Part shown: in pieces, positions 6,664 to 18,536 of the stretch
Layout: the number at the start of each line of letters is the position of its first letter
How positions within the stretch are numbered: the first letter of the stretch is position 1
NCBI GenBank assembly: GCA_001873285.1
Contig: MNYV01000075.1
Location: 1-34,572, forward strand
Length of the DNA: 34,572 nucleotides
Source: Nitrospirae bacterium CG2_30_53_67
GTDB lineage: Bacteria > CG2-30-53-67
Reading direction: 5' to 3'
The notes under the pieces: model-generated
The model's input: only the letters and a program-made list of their open reading frames with translations
The model's database searches: none
Told to the model about the DNA's origin: nothing
Made by a program: the position numbers and the translations under genes

Positions 6664-6888
6664 TTATTTTCGAAAGAAAAAATAGAATAACAAAAATAAG
6701 ATAATACTTAGAATGATGCTGGTCGTCAAAGGAAAATAAAAGGTAAAATTCTTTTTCCGGATAAAGATGTCTCCGGGAAGCCTGCCCAGCCACGGGATCT
6801 TCCCGGCAAGGAGGAGCATCCCGCCGATCAGGACCAGGAGAAAACCCGTAAAAATCAGGAATTTACCAATGGTTGTCCAGGGACTCAT
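6664..6888 (-). CDS. DUF2905 family small membrane protein
   Basis: A 74-residue protein with two hydrophobic helices (about 8-27 and 47-70) joined by WLGRLPGDIFIRKKNFTFYFP, the conserved core of DUF2905. These proteins have no assigned biochemical role and are often found next to ruvB, queA or queH, as here. The frame is open to a TTG at 6903, but two consecutive ATG codons at 6891 and 6888 follow a GAAAGAAGAG tract. The second ATG has the more natural spacing and is preferred. It is a membrane protein by sequence; function unknown. Confidence 0.85.
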   Translation of the reverse strand: MSPWTTIGKFLIFTGFLLVLIGGMLLLAGKIPWLGRLPGDIFIRKKNFTFYFPLTTSIILSIILFLLFYFFFRK

Positions 6889-11041: not shown

Positions 11042-11247
11042 TCTCCCATTTAGTGGGTAAAATAAGGGTTCAAGGGGTTCAGGGTTCAAGGATTCAAGTG
11101 AAATACTGAAACGCAAGCAAAATCTCCAGAGAAAAACACTTGAACACTTGACCCCTCAGACCCTCAAGTTCTTGAAAAGCACTTCACTTGACCCCTGGAA
11201 TCCTTGACCCCTTGACCCCTGATGTTTTCACCCACTCTTTTGGAGAT
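11042..11247. repeat. Long palindromic element with inverted ends, copy 3
   Basis: A 206-bp copy with the best-preserved ends: left TCTCCCATTTAGTGGGTAAAA (11042-11062) and right TTTTCACCCACTC plus TTTTGGAGAT (11225-11247), which are inverted repeats over about 22 positions. It contains one copy of the GCACTTCACTTGACCCCTGG unit (from 11179). It begins about ten bases after the stop codon of the upstream minus-strand gene and ends before the yebC leader. Confidence 0.85.
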
Positions 11248-11257
11248 GATCCTTTTT

Positions 11258-11797
11258 TTATGACTTCCTTCTCCAGAGGGATAGCAGCCGATCCCACCAG
11301 CTTGCAGCCTGGATCTCCCCTGGGTCCTGCGGCGTCTCTTCATCCTCTTCTTCCTCACCGTAGATGAGCGTGGTTCTTCCATCCAAGATGTCGATCTCCG
11401 GATGATCCTCGCTATCCGGACCAAGATCGTATGCGCCCTCTCCGCTGAAGGAAACCTCTGACTGAGACGCCTTTTTGAGAGAGATTGAAACACTGAGGAG
11501 ATATTCCTCAGAAACGCCGTTCGGAAGCTTAATCTGAAGGGGGATCAGAATCCCTCTCCCTTCATTTCTGCCGGAAGGCCTGATATCGAGCCTTTTGGAA
11601 ACAACAGGCCGGCGCTCGAAGAGGCGGTTTTCTCTTTTAAAAGGCTGAAGAGAAATATCCTCCTCATACTCCACATTCTCTTCCTCGGAGATCAAGTCCT
11701 CAAACGCCTTGAACCCCTGGTCCATCTGTTTTCCCGGCGCCTGCCCCCGTGAATGCGCATTTACGGATCCATTTTCATTAGATTTTTTCTCTTCCAT
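11258..11797 (-). CDS. Hypothetical acidic protein
   Basis: I do not recognise this protein. From ATG 11797 it has 179 residues. A low-complexity, charged N-terminal third (MEEKKSNENGSVNAHSRG) is followed by a predicted strand-rich part (GILIPLQIKLPNGVSEEYLLSVSISL), an acidic linker (YGEEEEDEETPQDPGE) and a tryptophan-rich basic end (WWDRLLSLWRRKS) that could touch a membrane. The frame is open to 11857, but no ribosome-binding site supports that; GGGACGGA lies upstream of 11797. It is between the degenerate-cyclase gene and yebC on the same strand. The open frame, start context and neighbours support a real gene. Confidence 0.65.
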   Translation of the reverse strand: MEEKKSNENGSVNAHSRGQAPGKQMDQGFKAFEDLISEEENVEYEEDISLQPFKRENRLFERRPVVSKRLDIRPSGRNEGRGILIPLQIKLPNGVSEEYLLSVSISLKKASQSEVSFSGEGAYDLGPDSEDHPEIDILDGRTTLIYGEEEEDEETPQDPGEIQAASWWDRLLSLWRRKS

Positions 11798-11925: not shown

Positions 11926-14313
11926 CTATTCCCCGGAAGCCGTGCGTTTCAGACCCTTGATCCCATACGCCGTCAGTTTTTTATGAACCCCGTAGGATAG
12001 GACGAGACGAAGACTGTTTACCCGGCCGCCGATCAAATTTTCGGTCTCTTCGTCCACCAGAATCTGGCCGGGAGAACCGGCCTGCATCAGGGTCAAAGCC
12101 CTTTCCCACGTATGGCCGAAAACGGCATAGGGGATGCCCCCCGTCCTCTCCCGAATCAGGAGATCTCCTGTAGCCACGCCCACTGAAACGCCATACCCGT
12201 TCATGTCTTCCTGGGGCAGCCCTTCACCAAAACGTGAAAAAATCTTGAGAAGGTCAACGGATGCAAGAACCGCCCGCCAGGGGTCTCCATGATCAGGAAA
12301 GGGAAGCCCAAAAATCCCCATGACGCCTACGCCGGCATCCCCTGCCGCATCTCCGCTGTGCCGGGCAATGACTTCCCGAACTTTCCGGAGATGCTGTTCG
12401 ATCCTCCGGATCCTTTTGGAAGCCTCCGGGTCTTTCTGCATGGCCTCATTCTCATGGAGATGGACCGAGAGCACGGTCACCTTGTATTCTCCTTCCATCT
12501 TATCGAGAACCGGGGAGTTGTGGAAAACCTTTTCGGAAAGCCTCTGGGAGAGCCCCCCTTCATAACATTCACGGATCCAGCGGCCGTTCTCGAACTCCTC
12601 ATAAAGACGGTGATTCACAATGGCAATGGCCGCCTGTCTCGAAAGGACCTGCAGGATCTCAAGATCTTTATCTGTAAACGGACCTTCGCGCATCGGGTCG
12701 GAGAGATTGATGACGCCGAGGACTTTCCCCTCATGAAGCACCGGCGCCGAAAGCAGGGTCCCGGATCGATACCGGTCCCGCTTGAAGGGAACAAAACGGG
12801 GATCCTTTTCTATGTCCTCGATCAGAAGCGGCTCACCCTTCTGAGCCACGTAACCGGCTATGGCCTCACCGACCAACAGCCGTGTTTTTTGTGCGATCTC
12901 ATCCTGGAGCCCCCGGTAGGCCTTGACCACAAGGTCCCCTTTGTCCTCCCGGAGGAGCATAATCGATACGCTTTTCACAGAGATCTTCTCACAGATCATC
13001 TCCACAATCAAATCAAGCACCACATCCAGATCAAAGAGCATGGAGACGGCCTGGCTCAGGTCCACCGATGCCAGCATCTCAAAAACCTTCTGTTCCTTCT
13101 CCGATTCCCTGGCCATGAGAGAAAGGACCTCTTTATTCAGCTTCAGGGTGGCTGACCGCACCTGCTCATCGAGCGCCTCTTTGAGCCGGCGATTTTCCTC
13201 CTCAAGGGCCTGCAGGCGCTCCGCCGTGACCTCGGTTCCTCCGTTTTTTTCCGCTCCGGCCTCCCTGACCGGGACCGTCTTTTCCCCGGGATCCTTTTCA
13301 GGTCTTGGATCCTTATCCTCCTGCTTTTCAAAAGCAAGGGACTGCTGCATCCAGCCGGTCATCATCTCTTCATACGAGGAGAGGACCTCCCGTTCAGCAG
13401 GGGAAAAGGCATCCCTTCCTTTTCTGCCGAAAACAACCATCCCTTCCATCTCCCCCACACGGATACGGATCGAGAGCAGGCTGACAAGCCTTCGAGCTTC
13501 AAAAAAGTCCTTTTCATCCTTCTCCTTCCTGAGGTCAGGGTAATAGGCCTCCTCTCTCTTGATGGATCTCAATAACCAAGGAATCCGCTGCTGGCCCAAA
13601 AGAACCTCACCGATCTTTCCTCCCTGGTCCCGTTCCAGACCCCGCAGATTCCCATCCGGATCCAGGAGGAGAACCGAGCAGAAATCAACCTCGATGGGCG
13701 GGTCGTTTTCCAGAATTTTCTGAATGCAGTCTTTAAGACCCGGAGGGGGGCTGAAAGCAGGGATGCCGCGCACCAGCTTTCGCTGTCCGTGATATAGCGA
13801 TAGAATCCGATCCGCTCTTAAGACCACCGAATAAACAATCCCGGCGAACACAAAGTAGAGAAAAACGATCCCGCCGAGTTCCAGGTTCCATCCCTCGGAT
13901 ACCACCGAGGTGTAAAACGCATGATACAGGGTCATCACCGAAGGGATCAGGGCAATGGGAAACCAGGCCCACCTCCGATTGTAGCAGAGACCGATCCCCA
14001 GCATCAGGACAGGAATCGTCAAATACCACTGGACAGAAAGCCCCTTCATCTGGATCAGGGAAGAAACCGCGAAGACATCCAGAAAATAGATGCCGATCGC
14101 TACCCCCTGTTGAATCCGTCTGGTGTAGCGGACCAGGAGCATAATTTCCGATACGGCAAAATACCCCAAAGCCGGCCAGAGAGGGAAGAATCTGCCGGAT
14201 TCGATCAAGACGTAAACCGTCCATGCGATCAGAAGGAATACGGCAAACCTCAGGATAATGAAAGTCCATGACCGATGAATGGAGTCGTCTATTCTGTTGT
14301 TCCAAAACCTCAT
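11926..14313 (-). CDS. Membrane GAF-domain protein with a degenerate class III nucleotide cyclase domain
   Basis: The 795 residues show about six membrane helices (17-166), a weak GAF-like region (about 190-325), a charged coiled coil (360-410), a clear GAF domain (425-570, with LLVGEAIAGYVAQKGEPLLIED split over this range) and a class III cyclase homology domain (605-790). The cyclase fold is recognisable (MGIFGLP, VSVGVATGDLLI, SPGQILVDEET), but the catalytic positions appear replaced: first metal Asp by H618, second by V662, transition-state Asn by E737 and Arg by T741. It is therefore likely a signalling pseudoenzyme. Its start overlaps the uvrC stop (ATGA), so it is translated together with uvrC. 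Confidence 0.85.
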   Translation of the reverse strand: MRFWNNRIDDSIHRSWTFIILRFAVFLLIAWTVYVLIESGRFFPLWPALGYFAVSEIMLLVRYTRRIQQGVAIGIYFLDVFAVSSLIQMKGLSVQWYLTIPVLMLGIGLCYNRRWAWFPIALIPSVMTLYHAFYTSVVSEGWNLELGGIVFLYFVFAGIVYSVVLRADRILSLYHGQRKLVRGIPAFSPPPGLKDCIQKILENDPPIEVDFCSVLLLDPDGNLRGLERDQGGKIGEVLLGQQRIPWLLRSIKREEAYYPDLRKEKDEKDFFEARRLVSLLSIRIRVGEMEGMVVFGRKGRDAFSPAEREVLSSYEEMMTGWMQQSLAFEKQEDKDPRPEKDPGEKTVPVREAGAEKNGGTEVTAERLQALEEENRRLKEALDEQVRSATLKLNKEVLSLMARESEKEQKVFEMLASVDLSQAVSMLFDLDVVLDLIVEMICEKISVKSVSIMLLREDKGDLVVKAYRGLQDEIAQKTRLLVGEAIAGYVAQKGEPLLIEDIEKDPRFVPFKRDRYRSGTLLSAPVLHEGKVLGVINLSDPMREGPFTDKDLEILQVLSRQAAIAIVNHRLYEEFENGRWIRECYEGGLSQRLSEKVFHNSPVLDKMEGEYKVTVLSVHLHENEAMQKDPEASKRIRRIEQHLRKVREVIARHSGDAAGDAGVGVMGIFGLPFPDHGDPWRAVLASVDLLKIFSRFGEGLPQEDMNGYGVSVGVATGDLLIRERTGGIPYAVFGHTWERALTLMQAGSPGQILVDEETENLIGGRVNSLRLVLSYGVHKKLTAYGIKGLKRTASGE

Positions 14314-16163
14314 TTCGTCAACCCAGCTTCCTGGCGCAGGATATTGAAAACGCGGGAGGCCGCGTCAAGATTCATGGAAGGGGCCTGAGCCAGATCTTTC
14401 AGACTCGCCCGGCGCACCCTCTCCAGACTGCCGAAATGCCGCAGCAGCGAGAGGGTCCGGGTCTTTCCTATCCCCTTGATCTCTTTTAAACGCGAGGTCA
14501 GGGTGTCTCGGGTGTGCAGTTTTCTGTAGTACGTCACCGCAAATCTGTGGGACTCGTCTCTGATTCTCTGAATCAGATGGATCACCGGATCGGCGGGGTC
14601 CAAAACGACCGGCTCCCTGCGCCCTGGCAGATAGATCCGGTCAACGCCGTTCTTTCCGGCATCAGGGTCCCCGGGCTTTGCCAGGGCCATGAAATCCGTA
14701 CCCTCAGTAAACCCTTGCTCACCGGCGACGTGGAGCAAGATATTGAGCTGCCCTTTTCCTCCGTCTATGAGGATGAGGTCGGGCATGGGAAGAGCAGCAT
14801 CCTCCCCGGAGCCATAACGGCGCGTGAGGACCTCGAAGATCATGGCATAATCATTGGGGCCTTCCACCGACTGGATCCTGTAGTGCCGGTAATGGGATTT
14901 CAAGGGTTTCCCTTTCTCAAAAACGACCATGGACGCTACGGGATATTCCCCCTGGATATTCGAGATGTCAAACGCCTCGATCCGGAGCGGGAGCTTCTTT
15001 AAACCCGCCGCATCCTGCAGATCTTTCAGAATAACCAGATCCCGGTCTCTCTGATTGAGATGGGACTGCAGGGCAAGCGCTGCATTTTCGTCGGCCATAC
15101 GGACCAGCTTGAGGTTGATGCCCCTCTGCGGGACCCTCATCCTCACCCGGCGCCCGCCTACGGCTGAAAAGGCCTTTTCCATGGTCTCCGTCTCCGATTC
15201 CGCAAACGCGAAGGGGGCAAAAATCAAGGGCGGGATGAGCCTCTCTTTGCTGTAATACTGCATCATAGTCGTCCTGAGTATCTCCTCCTCTTTCTCGTCT
15301 CCGGGCCGTTCGATAAAAAAGTCTTCCTTCCCGAGCAGCTTTCCGCCCCGGACGAAGAGAATCTCCGCGCATACCGTTTCACCGCTCATCGCCGTACCGA
15401 AGACATCCTTGTCCTCCATGTTCGGGCTGATGATCTTTTGCTGCTCGGTCATCTTCTCGATGCGCCTGATCTGGTCCCGGATCACGGCTGCTTTCTCGAA
15501 TTCGAGGGACCTGGATGCCTGTTCCATCTTCGTGGAAAGTTCACGGATCAACGGCCGGTTCTTCCCCTGCAAAAAAAGAACGGCCTGCCGAACCATCCGG
15601 GAATATTCGGCCTTGGATATCGAACCGGTACACGGAGCGAGGCATCTTCCGATCTGGGCGTTCAGGCAGGGTCTCTCCCTTTTCCCATCTATCCTGTTTT
15701 TGCATTTCCTGAGCGGGAAGGTCTTTTCGATGAGGTCCAGGGTCGTACGCAGGTGACTCCCTGGAACGTAAGGCCCGAAATACCTGGACCTGTCCCTGCC
15801 GATCTTACGGACCACATCCAGTTTGGGATAATCCTCCTTGACCGAAAGCCGAAGATAGGGATAATGCTTGTCGTCCCTCAGGAGGATGTTGTATTTCGGC
15901 CTGTTCTTCTTGATCAGATTGCTCTCAAGAATATACGCCTCTGCCTCAGAACCGGTCACCATGAAATCGATCCGTTGGACCTTCGAGAGCATGACCTCGG
16001 TCTTGGGCGTGAGTTTGGCCGAAGCAAGAAAGTAGGCCCTGACCCTGGATCTCAAATCCTTGGCTTTTCCGATATAGAGGATATCCCCCTGCCGGTCCTT
16101 CATGAGGTAGACGCCGGGAGACCTGGACATTCGATCGACAGTTTCCAGTAAAGATTCATTCAT
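14310..16163 (-). CDS. uvrC: UvrABC system protein C (excinuclease subunit C)
   Basis: UvrC makes both incisions in nucleotide excision repair after UvrB has verified damage. The 617 residues show the N-terminal GIY-YIG nuclease (GVYLMKDRQGDILYIGKAKD, from residue 17), the cysteine-containing segment CLNAQIGRCLAPC near 150, a UVR motif near 205 (SLEFEKAAVIRDQI), the RNase H-like C-terminal nuclease (EAFDISNIQG; LILIDGGKGQLN) and tandem helix-hairpin-helix motifs (LKEIKGIGKTRTLSLL). The start is ATG 16163 with GGGA eight bases upstream. uvrB lies upstream on the same strand beyond a 369-base gap filled by a repeat element. Confidence 0.97.
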   Translation of the reverse strand: MNESLLETVDRMSRSPGVYLMKDRQGDILYIGKAKDLRSRVRAYFLASAKLTPKTEVMLSKVQRIDFMVTGSEAEAYILESNLIKKNRPKYNILLRDDKHYPYLRLSVKEDYPKLDVVRKIGRDRSRYFGPYVPGSHLRTTLDLIEKTFPLRKCKNRIDGKRERPCLNAQIGRCLAPCTGSISKAEYSRMVRQAVLFLQGKNRPLIRELSTKMEQASRSLEFEKAAVIRDQIRRIEKMTEQQKIISPNMEDKDVFGTAMSGETVCAEILFVRGGKLLGKEDFFIERPGDEKEEEILRTTMMQYYSKERLIPPLIFAPFAFAESETETMEKAFSAVGGRRVRMRVPQRGINLKLVRMADENAALALQSHLNQRDRDLVILKDLQDAAGLKKLPLRIEAFDISNIQGEYPVASMVVFEKGKPLKSHYRHYRIQSVEGPNDYAMIFEVLTRRYGSGEDAALPMPDLILIDGGKGQLNILLHVAGEQGFTEGTDFMALAKPGDPDAGKNGVDRIYLPGRREPVVLDPADPVIHLIQRIRDESHRFAVTYYRKLHTRDTLTSRLKEIKGIGKTRTLSLLRHFGSLERVRRASLKDLAQAPSMNLDAASRVFNILRQEAGLTK

Positions 16164-16290
16164 TGAAATATCCCATAATCAAATACTATTTCTGGTTCCC
16201 TATTTCTGGTTCTTCTCCTCTACGAGCCATCGGCCATTTAGTGGGTAAAATAAGGGTTCAAGGGGTCCAGGGGTCAAGGATTCAAGTGAA

Positions 16291-16321
16291 CCCCGTTAGA
16301 GAGATGATCTCTCTAACGGGG
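16291..16321. mobile_element. Nested 31-bp palindrome, first
   Basis: CCCCGTTAGAGAGA and TCTCTCTAACGGGG are perfect 14-bp arms around TGA. The insert is flanked by TGAA on both sides (16287-16290 and 16322-16325), while copy 3 of the host element has a single TGAA at this point (TTCAAGTGAAATACTGA). This is the pattern of an insertion with a short target duplication (four bases; or two bases if the outer A/T pair is counted as part of the palindrome). Confidence 0.8.
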
Positions 16322-16434
16322 TGAAATACTGATACCGGTGAACCTAGTACAAGAACGCAAACAAAATCTCCAGAGAAAAGCACTTGAACCCTTGGACCCT
16401 AGTACCCTCGGCCCCTTATGTTTTTAGCACTTCA

Positions 16435-16462
16435 CCCCGTTAGAGGACAACCTCTAACGGGG
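16435..16462. mobile_element. Nested 28-bp palindrome, second
   Basis: CCCCGTTAGAGG and CCTCTAACGGGG are perfect 12-bp arms around ACAA. It is flanked by TTCA on both sides (16431-16434 and 16463-16466); the matching sequence in copies 2 and 3 is GCACTTCACTTGACCC with one TTCA. The target is the reverse complement of the TGAA target used by the first palindrome. Confidence 0.8.
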
Positions 16463-16532
16463 TTCACTTGACCCCTTGAATCCTTGACCCCTTGACCCCT
16501 GATGTTTTCACCCACTCTTTTTGAGATGTTCC

Positions 16533-18536
16533 CTACTTTTTTATCGCCTGGACGCCGATCAGCCTCTCTTTCATGGCGAGGAATTGATCCCGAAGGACCG
16601 AGGCCTTTTCAAATTCCAGGTTCCTGGCCGCATTCAGCATCTCCGCCTCCAGATCCCTGATCTTCCGATCGATCTCCTCGTCTGACAAGTAGGCTTCACC
16701 CGGTTCAGCGACAACCGACACCGTGATATAATCCGCCTCGCAGATCTGTACAAGCCCTTTGGGGATCGCCTTCATGATGGTCTGCGGCGTAATCCCCATC
16801 CGATGGTTGTATGCTTCCTGAGTCTTCCTCCTCCTGCTGGTTTCCCGCATCGCGTTTCGCATGGAATCAGTGATCCGATCGGCATAGAGAATCACCTGTC
16901 CGGAGGCGTTCCGGGCAGCGCGCCCCGTGGTCTGGATCAGGGACCGCTCGGATCGAAGAAAACCTTCCTTGTCTGCATCCAGAACTGCTACGAGCGAGAC
17001 TTCGGGGAGGTCCAGACCCTCCCGAAGAAGATTGATCCCGATCAGGACATCAAAGTCCCCTTTGCGAAGAGACCGGAGGATCTCCATCCGTTCGATGGTC
17101 TGAATGTCCGAATGAAGGTATTTCACTCGTACACCCAGTTCGGAATAATAGTCCGTCAGATCCTCGGCCATCTTCTTGGTCAGCGTTGTCACAAGGACCC
17201 GTTCGTTCCGCTCCGCCCTGATCCTGATCTCGTTTAAAAGATCATCCACCTGTCCGTTGGCCGACCGGATGAAGATCTCAGGGTCGAGCAGGCCTGTCGG
17301 GCGGATGATCTGCTCCGCCACGGATGCCCCGGCCTTTTCCATCTCATATTGTGCGGGCGTGGCGGAAACGTAAATGACCTGTCCGGCCAGCCCCTCAAAT
17401 TCGTCGAACCGGAGCGGGCGATTATCAAAGGCTGAAGGGAGACGGAAACCGTATTCGACCAGATTCTCCTTCCTGGACCGGTCTCCCCGATACATGCCGT
17501 TGAGCTGAGGGACGGTGATATGGCTCTCATCGATCACTACAAGGGTATCCCGGGGAAGATAATCAATCAAAGTGGGCGGCGGCTCCCCCGGCAGTCTGCC
17601 CGTGAGATGACGAGAATAGTTTTCGATCCCCTGGCAGTATCCGACCTCCTGAATCATCTCAAGATCAAAGAGGGTGCGCTGTTCGAGCCGCTGTGCCTCC
17701 ACCAGTTTGTTCTGCCGCTCCAGTTCCGCCACCCTCTCCTGCAGCTCTTTACGGATCTCCCGGACTGCTTTCTCTATTCTTTCCTTTGGAGTGACATAGT
17801 GGCTCTTCGGGTAAACGGCGATCTTGGGCAGGCGGCGGATCCTATCCCCGGTCAGGAAATCCACTTCATAGATGGATTCCACCAGATCTCCAAAGAATTC
17901 CACTCGGATGGCTGTATCGGCATAGCTCGGCAGAATCTGTACCACATCCCCCCTGACGCGGAACGTCCCCCTCTTGTATTCGAACTCATTCCGCTGGTAC
18001 TGGATCTCCACCAGCTTGCGCAGCATGGCGTCCCTGTCTATTTCGCACCCCTCTTCGAGATGGACCAGCATCCCGTGATAAGCCTCGGGCGAACCGAGAC
18101 CATAGATACAGGATACGGACGCCACGATGATCACGTCGTTCCTTTCCAGGAGCGAGTGGGTGGCCGAGTGGCGCAGCTTGTCGATCTCATCATTGATCGA
18201 GGCGTCTTTTTCGATATAGGTGTCGGACTGAGGGATGTATGCCTCGGGCTGGTAATAATCATAGTAACTGACAAAATACTCCACGGCATTCTCAGGGAAA
18301 AAAAACTTGAACTCGTTATAAAGCTGTGCCGCCAGGGTCTTGTTGGGCGCAATCACCAGGGTGGTCTTCTGAACCTCCTCAATCACCTTGGCCATGGTAA
18401 ATGTTTTTCCCGAACCGGTCACCCCTAAAAGCACCATATGGGACCGGCCTTCCTGCACCCATGCAGACAACCGTTTGATGGCCTCAGACTGGTCGCCGCA
18501 TGGTTCGAACTCCGAGCAGACACGAAATGACGTCAT
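16533..18536 (-). CDS. uvrB: UvrABC system protein B (excinuclease subunit B)
   Basis: UvrB is the damage-verifying helicase-like subunit of nucleotide excision repair. The 667 residues show Walker A GVTGSGKT (38-45), the damage-probing beta-hairpin region ([20 protein letters not shown], from about 91), VVIDESH, the C-terminal helicase motifs ([21 protein letters not shown] then QTTGRAARN) and a UVR motif at the C-terminus ([20 protein letters not shown]) that pairs with UvrC. The start is ATG 18536, and a consensus promoter lies 30-60 bases upstream. No obvious LexA-type operator (CTGT-N8-ACAG) was seen. Confidence 0.97.

Follow-up and report, generated by a model that had tools for sequence, protein, structure and literature searches.

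Small palindromes in a uvrC–uvrB spacer as probable members of a cross-phylum family of tiny transposons with GIY-YIG coding elements

Two perfect palindromes in the spacer between uvrC and uvrB of Nitrospirae bacterium CG2_30_53_67 are probably non-autonomous, MITE-like members of a tiny-transposon family that is distributed across phyla and includes coding elements with a gene for a GIY-YIG endonuclease. They are read as non-autonomous derivatives because longer members share their ends and duplication and carry the GIY-YIG gene. We also consider it somewhat likelier than its opposite that this nuclease (~86 residues) acts as the transposase for ~280-bp transposons that form a class of their own. 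They would target start and stop codons matching RTRAR, borrow a stop codon, recreate the start of the neighbouring gene, and have seeded many phyla with palindromes of 24–130 bp. The system as a whole, and not the two palindromes alone, would be categorically new if the nuclease is the mobilising enzyme.

The window, i.e. the whole stretch of DNA that was analysed, comprises positions 1 to 34,572 of contig MNYV01000075.1. Both palindromes are located in the uvrC–uvrB spacer within copy 4 of a host repeat, other copies of which lie at ~4293, 6904, and 11046 (copy 4 at 16234). The features of the locus are as follows.

11046..11259, no strand: host repeat copy 3, the comparison copy, empty at both sites
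14310..16163, minus strand: uvrC, which has its own GIY-YIG domain and lies outside the element
16234..16520, no strand: host repeat copy 4, carrier of both palindromes, ~280 bp
16287..16290, no strand: TGAA, left copy of the target duplication of type A (target G^TGAA)
16291..16321, no strand: type A palindrome, 31 bp, perfect, probable non-autonomous element, CCCCGTTAGAGAGATGATCTCTCTAACGGGG
16322..16325, no strand: TGAA, right copy of the target duplication of type A
16431..16434, no strand: TTCA, left copy of the target duplication of type B (TGAA on the other strand)
16435..16462, no strand: type B palindrome, 28 bp, perfect, probable non-autonomous element, CCCCGTTAGAGGACAACCTCTAACGGGG
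16463..16466, no strand: TTCA, right copy of the target duplication of type B
16533..18536, minus strand: uvrB

Copy 3 is uninterrupted at both sites, where it reads TTCAAGTGAAATACTG and GCACTTCACTTGACC. The sequence and this uninterrupted copy agree with the preliminary description of two insertions in the repeat, with 4-bp duplications of TGAA and TTCA. The arms of the palindromes are terminal inverted repeats of 13–14 bp, and the four arms are the only exact occurrences of CCCCGTTAGAG in the window. Folding of the two palindromes as single-stranded DNA gave z values of −9.8 and −8.3 relative to shuffled sequences. The host repeat itself (GTGGGTAAAA ... TTTTCACCCAC) is intergenic and abundant, and contains many TTGACCCC/GGGTTCAAG words.

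In the window's own genome, the pattern CCCCGTTAGA-N3-33-TCTAACGGGG has 13 matches and its reversed control has none. The ends of contigs C112 and C138 overlap, which reduces the matches to 12 distinct places, 11 of them with direct TTCA or TGAA flanks. The overlapping ends (L006 and L012) contain a 32-bp family palindrome outside the host repeat, with TTCA/TGAA flanks and without a direct duplication. The host repeat has ~97 cores in this genome, and occupancy was counted on 81 distinct copies. The left site was filled in 5 copies and cleanly empty in 60, and the right site was filled in 6 and cleanly empty in 35, in line with the earlier view that the palindromes are nested within a larger repeat for which empty sites exist. 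Whenever the left site is filled it contains the 31-bp type, and the right site likewise contains only the 28-bp type; the loop of each type has a single orientation. The filled copies are scattered among the empty ones in the host repeat tree without forming a single clade. The simplest reading is that one insertion took place at each site and was later spread or lost with the repeat via copying, conversion, or precise deletion.

The preliminary description had placed the insertions in copy 4 itself. This cannot be retained, since each type is tied to one site and orientation in several copies and palindromes of both types are present in a same-genus genome (apparently Hainich-H32-bin143; locus L138). 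The insertions therefore predate the species split and are older than copy 4. The uvrC–uvrB spacer of this sister species is without the host repeat and its sequence joins window position 16166 to 16521, so the palindrome-bearing repeat either arrived in the spacer or was lost in the sister. The L138 orthologue of the copy 3 spacer was dropped as a filled/empty pair, as the whole right-hand unit also differs.

A scan for CCCCGTTAGA-N4-24-TCTAACGGGG with one genome per species found the pattern in at least 118 stretches, which derive from Omnitrophota, Patescibacteria, Nitrospirota, Deltaproteobacteria, Elusimicrobia, Planctomycetota, Cloacimonadota, an Aenigmatarchaeota bin, and others. Among the matches listed, an exact 4-bp direct duplication brackets 58 of 125 distinct palindromes (mean of 10.8 and maximum of 24 in 2000 shuffles of the flanks), and about half of these exact palindromes are without matching flanks. 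In eleven such genomes the CCCCGTTAGA arm mostly occurs 20–84 times per strand, compared with 0–7 times for the reversed control. The arms are 10–15 bp long in elements outside the window. Longer elements (42–130 bp) that share these ends and duplications are frequent, and their interiors are often unrelated. In a Nealsonbacteria genome (G007), exact duplications of six different kinds were observed at 12 of 12 elements; because they vary among the elements, they are real target duplications and not part of the element. The check on flanks elsewhere that had been proposed for it supports the interpretation of the palindrome as a tiny mobile element that truly duplicates 4 bp of its target, both in the listed matches and in this single genome. 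The preliminary description missed the wider family, including the carriers of a GIY-YIG gene.

The target consensus of 116 duplication-verified elements is R^TRAR (TAAA, 49; TGAA, 33; and others), which replaces the TTCA-specific targeting suggested previously. Both window sites fit this target with G^TGAA on one strand, and TTCA/TGAA predominates here because the palindromes occupy two fixed sites of one repeat. The pre-insertion site was the ATG of an open frame in 24 of the 116 elements (21%), whereas the value for controls was 25 of 2225 (1.1%; p = 1e-19). In this test, open frames were at least 80 codons long and unannotated as genes, and the controls were the other occurrences of the same 4-mer in the same loci. 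Stop codons are mildly enriched at the target sites. Palindrome clusters were also observed immediately before lptF and lptG in one locus (L254:5448-5588 and 6698-6818), where the GTG start codons of both genes arise from the last palindrome base together with the TGAA. In 28 loci, 28 sampled palindromes are located inside predicted open frames. The commonest length is 29 bp, which gives 33 bp with the 4-bp duplication and keeps the frame.

A 278-bp element with TGAA duplications in the Nealsonbacteria genome G007 is filled by one GIY-YIG gene. We used its protein as the query against 50 palindrome-bearing genomes and read the flanks of the matches. The ends of the family are (C/T)CCCGTTAGA...TCTAACGGG(G/A). 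Elements with (C/T)CCCGTTAGA ends and exact duplications were found in Nealsonbacteria, Giovannonibacteria, Falkowbacteria, another Parcubacteria genome, Thermodesulfovibrionia, three Omnitrophota genomes, and the complete genome of Velamenicoccus archaeovorus, and the ends of a Doudnabacteria copy are slightly decayed. The coding members are ~271–307 bp long and contain one gene, that of a GIY-YIG endonuclease of ~86 residues. Of 72 GIY-YIG loci, 15 are enclosed by an exact duplication and inverted ends of 12 bp or more, and a few of these 15 have other end sequences; the same holds for none of 482 pseudo-genes placed at other positions of these loci. Ends of the YCCCGTTAGA type are present in all of the closest homologues (at least 72% identity). 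A scan by length only in a small phylum (7 genomes) for elements of 260–288 bp yielded two, one with a GIY-YIG gene (L501) and one without (L500). The element protein matches PF01541 with E = 3e-16, and the Y, Y, G, R, H, and E of the GIY-YIG motif are invariant among element proteins. Pairwise dN/dS values among the genes are 0.05–0.21, indicating purifying selection, with synonymous sites near saturation. Among viral contigs, phages, and plasmids, there was no match to the whole-element pattern or the protein.

In most coding elements the gene extends to the final base of the element and the duplicated target supplies its stop codon. In 10 elements the gene ends with ...LTG within the inverted repeat and the stop codon directly follows the last base of the element, being a TGA or TAA borrowed from the duplicated target. 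The target is often ATGAA, so the right junction recreates the GTG or ATG start of the downstream gene. Two elements (L317 and L297) have a stop codon inside the element, and in L501 the gene is reversed, with TTTA at its 3′ end and no stop codon there or in the duplication. Stop-borrowing is common but not required.

The ends, duplication length, and target are common to the palindromes and the GIY-YIG elements, and in some genomes the resemblance extends to neighbouring bases. In an Omnitrophota genome (G009), the sub-terminal CCT of its GIY-YIG element is present in 13 of 14 palindromic elements versus 0 of 90 elsewhere. The agreement is partial in G007, where the sub-terminal GAT of the GIY-YIG element is shared by 6 of 14 palindromes versus 3 of 90 elsewhere, and in G043 the sub-terminal bases mismatch. 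G043 also contains three copies (L484:9219, L488:19679, and L490:12363) of a non-coding family of 109 bp whose ends and interior are similar, and two of the copies have TTCA duplications. In another genome (G027), an unusual TATG/CATA duplication occurs at two GIY-YIG elements and one 125-bp non-coding element. Close homologues of the GIY-YIG protein (E ≤ 1e-20) were found in 21 of the 50 genomes with palindromes versus 2 of 182 genomes without palindromes (p = 3.5e-14); the 50 genomes were picked for their palindromes, so this value describes an association of two features and not a random sample. With a looser threshold and one unselected set of 193 genomes, the counts were 7 of 11 versus 25 of 182 (p = 4e-4), and 4 of 8 versus 25 of 179 (p = 0.02) after removal of the window's own family. 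Genomes rich in one feature may simply have much mobile DNA of all kinds. No GIY-YIG element with these ends was found in the window genome or in several of the other genomes that bear palindromes.

The GIY-YIG gene could be a passenger, with an unrelated transposase (DDE or other) encoded elsewhere recognising the CCCCGTTAGA ends. Ends with a fixed 4-bp duplication resemble classical cut-and-paste transposition, and some palindrome-bearing genomes have no close GIY-YIG homologue. Nevertheless, we consider this explanation unlikely, as no longer element in the stretches read combined these ends with a different gene. The GIY-YIG gene, the only one observed within such elements, evolves under purifying selection, and its presence correlates with the palindromes. 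The coding elements of 271–281 bp differ from a DDE insertion sequence in holding the GIY-YIG gene only. The ends of piggyBac/IS1380-like elements start with CCC and are accompanied by a 4-bp duplication; a mobiliser of this type was considered, and the elements read contained no such gene. Arm pairs up to 9 kb apart were also discarded as an autonomous element, since they proved to be palindrome clusters around ordinary genes, e.g., lptF. Alternatively, the palindromes might be ancestral in the host repeat and the empty copies might have lost them through replication slippage, with the 4-bp repeats as the exact boundaries of the deletion. Short direct repeats flanking a palindrome favour precise deletion, and the scatter of filled copies in the repeat tree, with type and orientation fixed per site, is compatible with it. 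However, empty copies are the large majority, and deletion covers the distribution among copies but not the origin of palindromes whose ends and duplications recur in unrelated contexts in many phyla. We therefore give this alternative a small chance.

The palindromes are also abundant, and REP-like hairpins moved by a Y1 (HUH) transposase, RAYT, have to be considered. A Y1_Tnp match was found in 15 of 18 palindrome genomes and a few RAYT genes are close to palindromes, but the remaining three genomes are without a Y1 match and ~35 of ~40 RAYT loci have no such palindrome nearby. In Y1 transposition of the IS200/IS605 type, the site of right cleavage is part of the element itself, so that target duplications differing within a single genome are unexpected. 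This origin appears quite improbable. It is hardly conceivable that the palindromes serve the uvr genes as structured RNAs or terminators of transcription. They do form strong hairpins, but no terminator-like stem followed by a T run and no Rfam match near the gathering score were found at them, and the same sequence is present in many phyla with target duplications.

If the palindromes and the GIY-YIG elements form one transposon family, the nuclease may cleave RTRAR targets with a stagger and, at this same boundary, either release the element or copy it. Fill-in of a 4-nt stagger, or replication, would then yield the 4-bp duplication, and elements reduced to their ends could be mobilised in trans by the GIY-YIG protein. 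From the sequence comparisons described above, we infer that this protein is the catalyst of movement and acts in trans on the palindromes. Characterised GIY-YIG enzymes mostly leave 2-nt 3′ overhangs, so the 4-bp duplication is not predicted by them. In the window genome, one insertion per site would have occurred in an ancestral host repeat and spread with it, and the repeat would have reached the uvrC–uvrB spacer once the two species had separated (or have been lost in the sister).

Very small mobile palindromic repeats, sometimes inside genes, include SDR5 of cyanobacteria and the Rickettsia palindromic elements. To our knowledge, neither of these has a known coding partner, whereas one is found here. 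As in prokaryotic MITEs (PMC10969869), the palindromes are short and non-coding, with terminal inverted repeats, a short duplication fixed at 4 bp, and a coding relative with the same ends and duplication, which is found in other genomes. They differ in being as small as 24–31 bp, with little beyond the two ends, in interiors that are often unrelated between copies, and in a coding relative that carries a GIY-YIG gene and no DDE transposase. REP/BIME sequences with RAYT (TnpA_REP) (PMC2817692) are likewise small palindromes in many copies, often intergenic. In contrast to them, the present palindromes have true 4-bp duplications that vary within G007 (REP/RAYT and IS200/IS605 insertion is without target duplication), ends conserved across phyla, and no consistent RAYT neighbour. 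The coding elements share the GIY-YIG domain with free-standing homing endonucleases (I-TevI, SegA-type), which are also small nuclease genes that apparently spread themselves. Unlike these, they have defined inverted ends, a 4-bp duplication, and non-coding derivatives, and occupy many ectopic sites with a 5-bp consensus instead of a single long homing site. The nearest solved sequence relatives are small GIY-YIG proteins of the UPF0213/YhbQ type (1zg2, BH0048; E = 8e-8), from which the element proteins differ by a shared C-terminal KxGxGKRxLxNR block and an end inside the inverted repeat. A search of open-access full text with the 10-base ends returned only unrelated oligonucleotides, and the open-access papers searched contained no description of GIY-YIG with inverted repeats, target duplications, MITEs, or palindromes.

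We know of no transposon with inverted ends that has a GIY-YIG protein as its sole enzyme. If the proposal is correct, these elements would be among the smallest autonomous transposons known and would account for a very common palindrome in groundwater and candidate-phyla genomes. Many small GIY-YIG genes in such genomes would then be selfish DNA and not repair factors, and the arrangement of stop and start codons would offer a simple route for insertion between closely spaced genes that leaves them intact. A 2025 study of Patescibacteria listed a GIY-YIG domain protein among the genes transferred to other bacteria (PMC12455944), which is consistent with mobile GIY-YIG elements.

Other small GIY-YIG genes (L457, L465, L467, L324:743, L314, and L325) are bounded by different inverted ends, which suggests further families of the same kind. 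These ends are CCCCGCACCTTT, CCCTCACTTTGGACTC and CCCCCACACCAATTATGT with CGCG, CGCCTACGGCGGAAG with GATC, and CCCCGTAGAG with TATG duplications. In five loci (L456, L460, L464, L468, and L472), small GIY-YIG genes are situated between apparent duplicated fragments of tRNA genes, and this group looks as if it inserts into tRNA genes. GIY-YIG genes of the window's own family are located beside 'gtccgccccgccaga..tgctgctc' in L475 (own genome, C17:20053), L463, and L471, with this sequence on both sides in L463.
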